DNA from: Deltaproteobacteria bacterium
GTDB taxonomy: Bacteria; Desulfobacterota; Dissulfuribacteria; Dissulfuribacterales; QOAL01
Direction: 5' to 3'
Length of the DNA stretch: 38,782 bases
NCBI GenBank assembly: GCA_026986785.1
Contig: JALSNW010000021.1
Location: 1-38,782, forward strand
Shown here: positions 3,359-6,682 of the stretch, in pieces
How positions within the stretch are numbered: position 1 is the first letter of the stretch
How the letters are laid out: each line of letters begins with the position of its first letter
Notes under the pieces: generated by a model
The model's database searches: none
Told to the model about the DNA's origin: nothing
Seen by the model: the letters and a program-made list of their open reading frames with translations, nothing else
Program-made: the position numbers and the translations under genes

Positions 3359-4315
3359 ATGTATTTTCCCACTGCCCAGATAGAGACTGCCCCTTGGCTC
3401 CCACCCTTGGTGGCCTTTTCCATATCCTTCTTTACATCTATGGGCGGTGTATCCGGGGCATTTTTGCTACTGCCATTCCAGATGTCCTTTCTTGGATATG
3501 CCTCACCGTCTGTAAGCGCCACGAATCAACTGTTCAACATAGTGGCCATACCCAGTGGTGTGTACCGCTACTACAAAGAAAAACGCATGCTTTGGCCCTT
3601 GACCTGGATCGTCATCCTGGGCACCTTGCCTGGTGTGCTCATAGGGGCCATAATACGTGTTAGATACCTGCCAGACCCTACCAAATTCAAGCTCTTTGCC
3701 TCAGCAGTGCTTTTTTACATTGGATTTCGCCTGGTAAAGGACCTTCTGACAAAAGACAGAAAAAAGCAGGCTGGAGAAAGGGCACGCAAAAATCAAGAAG
3801 CTGAGAAACAAGCTATATCACCGAGTAAAGACAGTGAGATGAAAGACCAACACACTGCACCCAATGTAGAGGTAACCCACTTCAGCCTCAATAGGCTTGA
3901 GTACGATTTCCAAGGCCAGAGCTTTTCCGTGTCCTGTCTCGGCATATTCATATTGAGCCTGGTCGTAGGGGTGATCGGCGGGGTTTATGGCATAGGCGGT
4001 GGTTCCATCATTGCCCCTTTCTTTGTCACGGTATTTGCCTTGCCTGTCCACACAGTGGCAGGTGCTGCCCTAATGGGTACTTTCGTTACATCTGTAGCTG
4101 GCGTATTTTTTTACCAGATGGTTGCCGCCTACTATCCGACCATGTCCGTAGCGCCTGATTGGCTCCTGGGCTTTCTTTTTGGCATTGGAGGAACTGCTGG
4201 CATGTACATGGGGGCCAGATGCCAAAAACATGTCCCTGCAAAGGCAATAAAGTGGCTCCTTGCCGCCATAATCATATCTACTGCCCTAAAGTATCTATTG
4301 GCCTTCTTCAGATAA
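3359..4315 (+). CDS. TauE/SafE (TSUP) family membrane permease
   Basis: This 318-aa integral membrane protein has glycine-rich hydrophobic segments. The N-terminal half includes SFFTSMGGVSGAFLLLPFQMS and the C-terminal half VVGVIGGVYGIGGGSIIAPF, the paired internal-repeat signature of the sulfite exporter TauE/SafE family. A charged, Lys/Glu-rich cytoplasmic loop (about residues 130-180) joins the halves. The family exports sulfite, sulfoacetate or similar organosulfur anions; the actual substrate is not evident. The gene lies just before the arsenic operon but about 100 nt away, with an arsR promoter between, so it is probably a separate transcription unit. The upstream 3246-3358 region is AT-rich without a clear promoter of good spacing. 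Confidence 0.85.
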   Translation: MYFPTAQIETAPWLPPLVAFSISFFTSMGGVSGAFLLLPFQMSFLGYASPSVSATNQLFNIVAIPSGVYRYYKEKRMLWPLTWIVILGTLPGVLIGAIIRVRYLPDPTKFKLFASAVLFYIGFRLVKDLLTKDRKKQAGERARKNQEAEKQAISPSKDSEMKDQHTAPNVEVTHFSLNRLEYDFQGQSFSVSCLGIFILSLVVGVIGGVYGIGGGSIIAPFFVTVFALPVHTVAGAALMGTFVTSVAGVFFYQMVAAYYPTMSVAPDWLLGFLFGIGGTAGMYMGARCQKHVPAKAIKWLLAAIIISTALKYLLAFFR

Positions 4316-4413: not shown

Positions 4414-4785
4414 ATGCATACACCAACCATCAACAAAATAAGCAGACGTCTCAAGGCCATATCCGATCCCACCAGGATCAAGATCCTGGTCATGCTCTCA
4501 AAAAGGGAGTGCTGCGTCTGCGAACTCACTTCTGCCCTGGACTTGTCCCAGCCCACGGTGTCCCGTCATCTCAAACAGCTCGAGATGGAGGGCTTTGTAT
4601 CTGGCAGGCGGGACAAAAACTGGGTTCTATACCGCCTCTCTCCCCAGGAAGAATGCTGCCGCAAACTCATAAGTATCGTTATCACCAGGGCAGAGACAGA
4701 TCCTGAGATGAAGCATCTTCTCCAAAGGCTATCTGCGCTGGACCGTAACAATATTGCCAAGGATCTCCCACAAGAAGGTGCATAG
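4414..4785 (+). CDS. arsR: ArsR/SmtB-family metalloid-responsive repressor
   Basis: This 123-aa winged-helix repressor has the metalloid-binding sequence ECCVCELTSALDLSQPTVSR, in which vicinal cysteines sit at the start of the DNA-recognition helix, as in As(III)/Sb(III)-sensing ArsR proteins. A further Cys pair (ECCRK) lies near residue 85. It should bind DNA without metalloid and release on arsenite binding. It heads an operon with arsC, a DUF318 permease and small redox proteins. No ribosome binding site precedes the ATG, and the promoter places the RNA start almost at the ATG, so translation may be leaderless. The palindrome across the -10 is the likely operator. Confidence 0.92.
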   Translation: MHTPTINKISRRLKAISDPTRIKILVMLSKRECCVCELTSALDLSQPTVSRHLKQLEMEGFVSGRRDKNWVLYRLSPQEECCRKLISIVITRAETDPEMKHLLQRLSALDRNNIAKDLPQEGA

Positions 4786-4787
4786 AC

Positions 4788-5207
4788 ATGAAAAGGATCC
4801 TTTTTCTCTGTACCCAGAATGCCTGCAGGAGCCAGATGGCAGAAGGGATTGCCAATGCCATCTTAGGAGATGAGGTGAAATGCTTTTCTGCCGGCACAGA
4901 CCCCCACCCCATCAATCCCCTTGCCATCCGGACACTATGGGAACAGGGCATGGACATCAGCCGCGCCTATTCCAAACACGTAGACGAATTCACCAATACC
5001 CATTTTGACATCGTTGTCACCCTCTGTGCTGACGCAAAGGAGAACTGCCCATCCTGGCCAAGGCCAGCCAAAAAGATACATTTTGGCATGAATGACCCGG
5101 CCAAGGCCCAGGGCACAGAGGAAGAAAGACTCCAGGCCTTCAGACAGGCGAGGCAAGAGATCATGGAAAAACTCATCCCCATTCTGCAAAAAGAGCTTGG
5201 TCTTTAG
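4788..5207 (+). CDS. arsC: Arsenate reductase, thioredoxin-coupled (LMW-PTPase fold)
   Basis: This 139-aa cytoplasmic enzyme reduces arsenate to arsenite. The N-terminus MKRILFLCTQNACRSQMAEG carries the CX5R phosphatase-like loop (nucleophilic Cys8). The redox pair needed for the disulfide relay is in VVTLCADAKENCPSW (Cys about 80 and 87), and WPRPAKKIHFGMNDPAKAQG matches the arsenate reductase type rather than a phosphatase. It starts two bases after the arsR stop, so it is co-transcribed. The thioredoxin-like protein four genes down could be its electron donor, but that is inference. Confidence 0.93.
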   Translation: MKRILFLCTQNACRSQMAEGIANAILGDEVKCFSAGTDPHPINPLAIRTLWEQGMDISRAYSKHVDEFTNTHFDIVVTLCADAKENCPSWPRPAKKIHFGMNDPAKAQGTEEERLQAFRQARQEIMEKLIPILQKELGL

Positions 5208-5219
5208 GAGGCTGATGTC

Positions 5220-6176
5220 ATGCTGAAGATATTCACTCTCTTTGCTGATCTTGTCACATACCAGTGGTTTGGGATGTCTCCAGGCCATCACTTGACAGAG
5301 GCTATCCATTTCTTTGTAGAGGATACCACCAAGATATTCTTTCTCCTGGTCACCATAATATTCGTTGTGGCTATTGTCAGAAGCTTTTTCCCCCCTGAGC
5401 GTACCAGGAAGTTCCTGAGCAACAAGAAGGTGATAGTTGCCCACGTCTTGGCAGCACTCCTGGGGGTGGTCACACCCTTTTGTTCCTGTTCCGCATGTCC
5501 CCTCTTCATAGGCTTTGTGGAGGCAGGCATACCCCTTGGGGTGACATTTAGTTTTCTGATCTCGTCGCCAATGGTTAATGAGGTGGCCCTCATCCTGCTC
5601 TTTGGCCTCTTTGGCTGGGAAATAGCTGCCATTTACTTGGGAACCGGGCTTCTTGTGGCAGTGGTTGCAGGCATGGTGATCGGCAGACTCAACATGGAAC
5701 GCTTTGTTGCGGACTACGTATGGGAGATCAGGATGGGCCAGGCAGAGATTCCAGACATGGATTGGGCAGAAAGGATCGAATATGCAAGGGGTTACGTAAA
5801 AGATATCCTTTCAAAGATCTGGCTCTATGTCCTTGGTGGCATAGCGGTTGGGGCACTGGTCCACGGATACGTACCCCAGGATTTTCTCCTCAGATACGCC
5901 GGCCCTTCGAACCCTGTGGCCGTTCCAGTGGCCGTCATCCTGGGAGTCCCCCTCTACAGCAATGCCGCAGGAGTCATCCCCATAGTACAGGCCCTCATGG
6001 CCAAAGGACTCCCCCTGGGTACCACCCTTGCCTTCATGATGGCGGTCACCGCACTTTCCTTTCCGGAGATGGTGATACTCAGTCAGGTCCTCAAGAAACA
6101 GCTCATAATGACATTCGTGGGAATCGTCTCCATCAGCATCATAATGGTAGGATATGTGTTTAACATGTTGATTTAA
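5220..6176 (+). CDS. DUF318/YraQ-type permease (ArsP-like)
   Basis: This 318-aa integral membrane protein has about eight hydrophobic helices. It carries the DUF318 permease hallmarks PFCSCSACPLFIGFVEAGIP and FLISSPMVNEVALILLFG in the first half and a matching repeat (GVPLYSNAAGVIPIVQAL) in the second. Relatives include ArsP, an exporter of trivalent organoarsenicals, and uncharacterised permeases that travel with arsR and small thioredoxin-like genes, as here. The cysteines in CSCSAC are the likely metalloid or thiol contact. A strong AGGAGG precedes the ATG. The gene is within the ars operon, 12 nt after arsC and 6 nt before the BFD-like gene. Substrate (arsenite, methylarsenite or other) is unproven. 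Confidence 0.85.
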   Translation: MLKIFTLFADLVTYQWFGMSPGHHLTEAIHFFVEDTTKIFFLLVTIIFVVAIVRSFFPPERTRKFLSNKKVIVAHVLAALLGVVTPFCSCSACPLFIGFVEAGIPLGVTFSFLISSPMVNEVALILLFGLFGWEIAAIYLGTGLLVAVVAGMVIGRLNMERFVADYVWEIRMGQAEIPDMDWAERIEYARGYVKDILSKIWLYVLGGIAVGALVHGYVPQDFLLRYAGPSNPVAVPVAVILGVPLYSNAAGVIPIVQALMAKGLPLGTTLAFMMAVTALSFPEMVILSQVLKKQLIMTFVGIVSISIIMVGYVFNMLI

Positions 6177-6182
6177 CGATAG

Positions 6183-6419
6183 ATGAAAAATCAGAGAGAG
6201 GACATGGAAAGTCACAACACGGAAACCATCTGTTACTGCTTCGGCTACACCAGGCAGGATATATTGGAGGATATAGAGAAAAACATGGGCCGATCCACTG
6301 TGATGGAACGAATAATGGCAGAGAAGAAGAGAGGAAGCTGCCGTTGCAAAGAGCAAAATCCCAGGGGGCGCTGATGTTTAGCTGATGTCCGCCGTGTAGT
6401 GGACTCTGTAAAAGGGTAA
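6183..6419 (+). CDS. BFD/CopZ-like [2Fe-2S] protein with selenocysteine (TGA at 6372)
   Basis: This is a small cluster protein of 78 residues if the TGA at 6372-6374 is read as Sec. The N-terminal part has CYCFGYTRQDI and GSCRCKEQNPRGR. Related BFD-like/CopZ N-terminal domains, as I recall them, continue with a Cys-Cys-Leu-Gly-Asp/Glu-Val motif. Here the same frame continues after the TGA as CLADVRRVVDSVKG and stops at TAA 6417-6419, so TGA sits exactly at the first Cys of the CC pair. A good SECIS-like hairpin follows. The cysteines (CxC, CxC and the Sec-Cys pair) would hold a [2Fe-2S] or other metal centre. A second start at 6204 is possible. The gene lies inside the ars operon between the permease and the thioredoxin-like gene, suggesting redox or metalloid handling. 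Confidence 0.78.
6387..6404 (+). promoter_or_regulatory. SECIS-like hairpin after the TGA at 6372
   Basis: GTCCGC (6387-6392) pairs with GTGGAC (6399-6404), six pairs including one G-U, closing the loop CGTGTA. The loop starts 18 nt after the TGA and has G at its second position followed by U. These features fit the bacterial SECIS pattern of a small apical loop with an early G about 16-37 nt from the UGA. Confidence 0.65.
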
Positions 6420-6451
6420 ATGAAACAATATAAATCAAGGAGGTATCAAAA

Positions 6452-6682
6452 ATGAGAATAGAAATCCTCGGACCAGGCTGTGCCCGTTGCAAGGCCCTGG
6501 AAGAAAATGCGAAACAGGCCGCAGAAGAACTCGGCCTCGATGCGGAAATAGTCAAGGTCACTGAAATGGGAAAGATCATGTCATACGGCGTCATGTCCAC
6601 GCCGGGAGTCGTCGTTGACGGAAAGGTAAAGGGTTCTGGAAAACTCTTCAGTGTTGAAGAGATAAAGAAGATGCTGAGATGA
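6452..6682 (+). CDS. Small thioredoxin-like protein (MTH895/TM0996 type)
   Basis: This 76-aa minimal thioredoxin fold has the redox motif GPGCARCKALEENAKQA near the N-terminus, and cis-Pro and glycine segments in YGVMSTPGVVVDGKVKGSGK. This subfamily is regularly found beside DUF318 permeases and arsR. It probably passes electrons or thiol-bound metalloid between cytoplasmic partners such as ArsC, the permease or the neighbouring Sec protein. A consensus AGGAGG sits upstream of the ATG. Its stop overlaps the ATG of the TolC-like gene (ATGA), which implies translational coupling to the efflux pump. Confidence 0.9.
   Translation: MRIEILGPGCARCKALEENAKQAAEELGLDAEIVKVTEMGKIMSYGVMSTPGVVVDGKVKGSGKLFSVEEIKKMLR

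Follow-up and report, generated by a model that had tools for sequence, protein, structure and literature searches.

A predicted selenocysteine-containing CopZ/BFD-like [2Fe-2S] protein encoded in an arsenic operon of a Deltaproteobacteria bacterium

The arsenic operon and its UGA-containing gene

We analyzed a stretch of 38,782 nucleotides (hereafter the window) from a Deltaproteobacteria bacterium (assembly GCA_026986785.1, contig JALSNW010000021.1). An arsenic operon is found in this window with all its genes on the forward strand: an arsR gene, an arsC-like gene, a gene for an ArsP_1 permease, a small gene with an in-frame TGA (hereafter the UC gene, after the adjacent selenocysteine [Sec, U] and cysteine predicted in its product), a gene for an ArsE-family thioredoxin and a set of TolC-/RND-type export genes, whose names are our reading of the open reading frames (ORFs). 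The features are the following:

4414..4785, + strand: arsR-type metalloregulator gene (HTH_5, 70.9 bits; HTH_metalloreg, 91.2 bits, over the cut-off)
4788..5207, + strand: arsC-like arsenate reductase gene, LMWPc family (LMWPc, 70.3 bits, over the cut-off)
5220..6176, + strand: ArsP_1-family permease gene (ArsP_1, 254 bits)
6204..6419, + strand: gene for a predicted Sec-containing CopZ/BFD-like [2Fe-2S] protein (reading frame running on through a TGA taken as Sec, profile scores, homologues)
6372..6374, + strand: predicted UGA codon for the Sec that opens the U-C pair (TGA kept in every homologue read)
6375..6377, + strand: codon for the Cys that completes the U-C pair (TGT or TGC in 87/87)
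6387..6404, + strand: bacterial SECIS-like hairpin, 6 bp stem, loop CGUGUA (folding, synonymous constraint, compensatory pairs, published bSECIS criteria)
6452..6682, + strand: MTH895/ArsE-family small thioredoxin gene (TIGR00412, 107.1 bits, over the cut-off; Thioredoxin_3, 100.4 bits)

These profile scores agree with the first-pass annotation, which had placed the UC gene between an ArsP-like permease and a small thioredoxin in an arsR/arsC operon. The arsC-like gene also scored 140.8 bits against arsC_pI258_fam, which is under the cut-off of that model (174.3). A TauE/SafE permease gene (3359-4315) stands before arsR, and near relatives have a TauE gene separating the UC and thioredoxin genes.

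The only TGA inside the frame at 6183-6419 is at 6372-6374, giving ...CYCFGYTRQDILEDIEKNMGRSTVMERIMAEKKRGSCRCKEQNPRGR-U-CLADVRRVVDSVKG-TAA. As had been claimed, the frame continues past this codon, through the Cys, to a TAA stop (6417-6419). The ATG at 6204 is a likelier start than 6183 because AGAGAGG lies just 5' of it and homologues start nearby. From this ATG, the product is 71 residues long with Sec at residue 57 (residue 64 from the alternative start at 6183). We found no second copy of the UC gene in the window's genome. Genome-wide recoding of UGA was rejected as unneeded, the adjoining thioredoxin gene using an ordinary TGA as its stop.

Conservation of the UGA codon and of the hairpin

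Homologues with one TGA were found in 13 other genomes of the window's family. Across the class, all 18 aligned sequences (the window's included) present U-C in one column, and the two CxC motifs are invariant as well; a degenerate copy without the motif (L028, genome G033) was omitted from this homologue set. Scanning named genomes yielded 80 loci, all of which read TGA followed by TGC or TGT at the equivalent place. These come from "Deltaproteobacteria" and Desulfobacterota (metagenome-assembled genomes as well as isolates), from Nitrospirota and, in small numbers, from Pseudomonadota, Verrucomicrobiota and Synergistota. When 395 genomes were drawn from the phylum, an internal TGA was observed in 58 of the 62 genomes with a match, and the remaining four matches are more distant and read CC. 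The comparison of Cys and Sec forms proposed by the first-pass annotation finds Cys forms only in more distant homologues and none inside the UC subfamily at the 80 named-genome loci.

The motif is GRUC in the window and GxUC in most of the family, and the residues past the UGA (UC, DVR) are conserved across phyla. That the in-frame TGA at 6372 falls on the first Cys of a Cys-Cys motif, as initially described, is borne out by 87 of 87 homologues with TGA followed by a Cys codon and by Cys-Cys in distant CopZ proteins. Homologues run on beyond this position, with none of the early endings predicted for the opposite case. At the level of sequence, these comparisons confirm a UGA-Cys pattern far beyond chance. 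In a tree of the 87 short sequences, which is weak owing to few columns and long branches, the rows with Cys fall mostly outside.

A six-pair hairpin with loop CGUGUA had been reported 18 nt after the UGA. The hairpin was recovered (6387-6404, GUCCGC-CGUGUA-GUGGAC), but the 18 nt are the distance from the UGA to the loop, and the stem already starts 12 nt after the UGA. Folding gave −7.4 kcal/mol for the stem alone (z −2.9) and −10.7 kcal/mol for the 32-nt stretch 6380-6411 (z −2.95; 3 of 200 shuffles equally good). The published bSECIS model has a loop of 3-9 nt, a stem of 4-16 bp, a G within the first two nucleotides of the loop, a UGA-to-loop spacing of 16-37 nt and a minimum free energy of −7.5 or lower (PMC13188914). 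The hairpin agrees with these criteria through its 6-nt loop, 6-bp stem and 18-nt spacing, and through its energy when flanking pairs are included (−10.7, relative to −7.4 for the stem alone). No Rfam match was found in 6300-6500.

We further analyzed the hairpin across 87 distinct sequences. The Arg codon of the 5' arm is CGC in all 78 cases of Arg, whereas the Arg codon that follows is never CGC (CGT 30, CGG 19, AGG 1); CGC represents 21% of Arg codons in neighboring ORFs and 10% in the window. The Val before the 5'-arm Arg is encoded by GTC in 73 of 85 cases. Compensatory changes occur at two pairs: numbered from the U of UGA, pair 18-31 is C-G 73 times, U-A 8 times and U-G 5 times, and pair 19-30 is C-G 83 times and U-A, A-U and U-G respectively 2, 1 and 1 times. 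The suggested covariation check thus returned two-sided changes in the wider set, and none among the 18 closest sequences alone. Overall, 97.1% of stem cells are paired (97.2% in the 18 closest sequences), relative to 24-57% when the 3' side is slid. No formal probability is attached to this constraint because the 87 sequences share ancestry.

The Sec machinery on which the first-pass annotation had made its reading depend is complete in the window's genome: tRNA-Sec (74.9 bits; ARAGORN anticodon tca), SelA (603 bits), SelB and SelD were all above cut-offs. SelA is too widespread in the class to set carriers of the UC gene apart: it was detected in 42 of 46 genomes and in 18 of the 19 genomes with a UC match (the exception is the draft genome G007). 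The SelD gene of the window's genome (G000:C28:10066-10989, L153) itself contains one in-frame TGA and probably encodes another selenoprotein.

Because the TGA-Cys pair is conserved, the SECIS-like hairpin is constrained and the genome encodes the Sec machinery, the UC gene almost certainly encodes a selenoprotein with an invariant Sec-Cys pair. Placing Sec at the first Cys of the CC motif, as first proposed, is backed by the conservation of U-C and by CC in distant CopZ homologues. We rejected as extremely improbable that the UGA is a true stop yielding a truncated BFD-like protein with incidental or remnant matches downstream: the standard code does give a 63-aa ORF from 6183 and TGA is the ordinary stop of the adjoining gene, but conservation across phyla extends beyond the UGA, CopZ homologues have CC at its place and synonymous sites of the hairpin are constrained. 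Calling this UGA a stop would hide a functional C-terminal end.

Domain kinship, genomic settings and possible roles

By both sequence and fold, the closest solved relative of the UC protein is the [2Fe-2S] domain of Archaeoglobus fulgidus CopZ (2hu9), whose Cys118-Cys119 (chain numbering) align on U-C. Together with the alignment of CC homologues on UC, this upholds the suggested CopZ/BFD kinship. The AlphaFold model (mean pLDDT 87.8) has 2hu9 as its top fold match (probability 0.93, TM 0.65, but E 0.45), and its likeness to Bfd is weaker. The UC protein reached the cut-off of no NCBIfam model: CopZ_Nterm_CC (NF047645) gave 59.6 bits over positions 77-137 of 138 only, its cut-off of 100 bits applying to the full two-part protein, and CopZ_Nterm_CU (NF045877) gave 27.2 bits relative to a cut-off of 190. 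Fer2_BFD (PF04324) scored 19.3 bits over positions 1-48 of 50, under its 26-bit gathering cut-off. CopZ-type proteins from plasmids and other genomes read NPxGSCC or NPRGRCC where the UC family has NPxGRUC, and the Cys-type proteins mostly possess a further N-terminal half ahead of the matching region. We also observed a second BFD-like subfamily (CYCSGVTKGDI...GRCRETNPRGRUC; L163 near 1575, genome G145 contig 157) with an in-frame TGA at the place of GxUC, and its relatives L157 and L158 read CC.

The UC family keeps six chalcogen residues (CxC, CxC and UC), and cluster binding is predicted from homology, with the low Fer2_BFD score speaking against it. Four of these residues would hold the [2Fe-2S] cluster, and the two spare ones would be one residue of the UC pair and the first Cys of the second CxC. 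The latter Cys is missing from A. fulgidus CopZ, which likewise counts against this reading. It is unlikely that Sec itself is a cluster ligand by which the redox potential or lability of the cluster is tuned. If the domain follows CopZ, one residue of UC must be the fourth ligand, and the sequence alignment is compatible with either. However, Cys119 of A. fulgidus CopZ, which we take to be a cluster ligand, aligns with the Cys and not with Sec, so that Sec would be left free.

The genomic settings of the relatives suggest several partners. In 14 of 18 loci of the class-level set, from the window's taxonomic order, the UC gene stands directly behind an ArsP gene, and one more locus has the ArsP gene within 1.4 kb. 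At eight loci, mostly in Nitrospirota, the UC gene follows acr3 within 1 kb (TIGR00832, 462 bits), and at five it follows chromate transporter genes. In the latter loci (L114, L129, L133, L136 and L137) it stands close behind the transporter gene, often with TauE, MFS, CrcB and DUF190 genes next, which suggests an anion/oxyanion setting rather than arsenic. The UC gene is beside merA at three loci (L102, L113 and L131). At L088 (1806-3473), behind merR, a single frame runs from the UC BFD domain through the UGA into a full MerA core (TIGR02053, 568 bits). Cys-type CopZ-MerA fusions were also observed at L148 (plasmid pK2D_1) and at L155, the latter judged from the following frame. The ars, acr3, mer and chrA queries detected nothing within 5 kb at about 46 of the 80 named loci, partly through contig ends. 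Since over half of these loci thus have no tested metal-resistance gene nearby, the arsenic role is putative and would be lineage-specific, and a general metal role is putative as well.

Sec is mostly found in redox chemistry, and BFD domains carry electrons. The UC gene adjoins one for an ArsE-type thioredoxin, and several relatives have DsbD-like or thioredoxin genes nearby. It is possible, if somewhat doubtful, that the UC protein is a redox protein and not a metal carrier, acting as electron-transfer partner or selenol reductase for the neighboring reductases and thioredoxin, or as a [2Fe-2S] protein with a general anti-oxidant function. Against this, a metal relay accounts at least equally well for the fusion to MerA and for the direct pairing with ArsP, Acr3 and ChrA, permeases that work without electrons.

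The best explanation overall, which we consider very likely, is a free-standing CopZ/BFD [2Fe-2S] protein, decoded with Sec. More tentatively, it may be a small redox/metallochaperone module whose Cys and Sec residues bind or reduce thiophilic metal(loid)s. SelB and tRNA-Sec would decode the UGA as selenocysteine at the SECIS hairpin within the gene. Next to the cluster, the spare residues would then most likely make up a soft-metal or selenenylsulfide site, where a thiophilic metal(loid) would be bound or reduced before being passed on. In the window's operon, the ArsP-type permease would receive As(III) or an organoarsenical, and the ArsE-type thioredoxin might act as reductant; in relatives, the partners of the same module would be Acr3, chromate transporters or MerA. 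The affinity of selenols for arsenite could, but need not, be the reason for the Sec-Cys pair, because relatives also adjoin mercury or chromate genes, or no tested metal gene. It is rather unlikely, though conceivable from the sequences, that the UC protein is a portable Sec-Cys [2Fe-2S] relay serving whichever neighbor is present (ArsP, Acr3, ChrA or MerA), possibly with Sec touching the cluster. These results indicate that, in an iron-sulfur protein that probably handles metals, Sec was retained and almost never gave way to Cys.

Comparison with known CopZ-type and MerA systems

Reviews list a "(2Fe-2S)-binding protein (copper chaperone CopZ family) form 1" (cd10141; PMC13188914, PMC9312934), to which the 2026 review of this pair assigns the motif GxUC and which it places among the families predicted with high confidence or in later rows of that table. 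This selenoprotein shares with the UC protein the CopZ-like domain family and the Sec-Cys order in GxUC; the identity of the two (record WP_245779778.1) rests on motif and domain. We infer that the UC gene's family is already known, because the gene matches the motif and domain listed for form 1. An ars, mer or chr setting of form 1 is not described in these reviews, CopZ goes unmentioned in the main text of the GOS paper of 2008 that the review cites, and our search, thin on subscription literature, found no published account of such a setting. The conserved place behind arsP, the pairing with acr3, chrA and merA, and the MerA fusion offer concrete partners for a family for which we found no stated role. 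The recurrence of arsenic, mercury and chromate genes beside the UC gene thus makes its role open to testing.

The Csac_0668 family (form 2; CopZ_Nterm_CU, NF045877) is likewise a CopZ-type [2Fe-2S] selenoprotein. It differs by its Cys-Sec order and its two-part model of 161 positions, whereas the UC protein presents Sec-Cys.

The N-terminal domain of A. fulgidus CopZ (2hu9) and the bacterial "copper chaperone Copz family" possess a BFD-type [2Fe-2S] half with a CYC and a CC pair matching UC. Those proteins present Cys-Cys and an extra N-terminal half, whereas the UC protein corresponds to the [2Fe-2S] half alone, with Sec.

Finally, MerA often carries a metal-binding domain ahead of its core, and the UC domain of L088 likewise stands ahead of a true MerA core. 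The UC domain is not of the HMA type, however, and is fused at one locus of the subfamily while being a separate gene elsewhere. By analogy, this fusion represents the best hint of a chaperone role for the UC domain.
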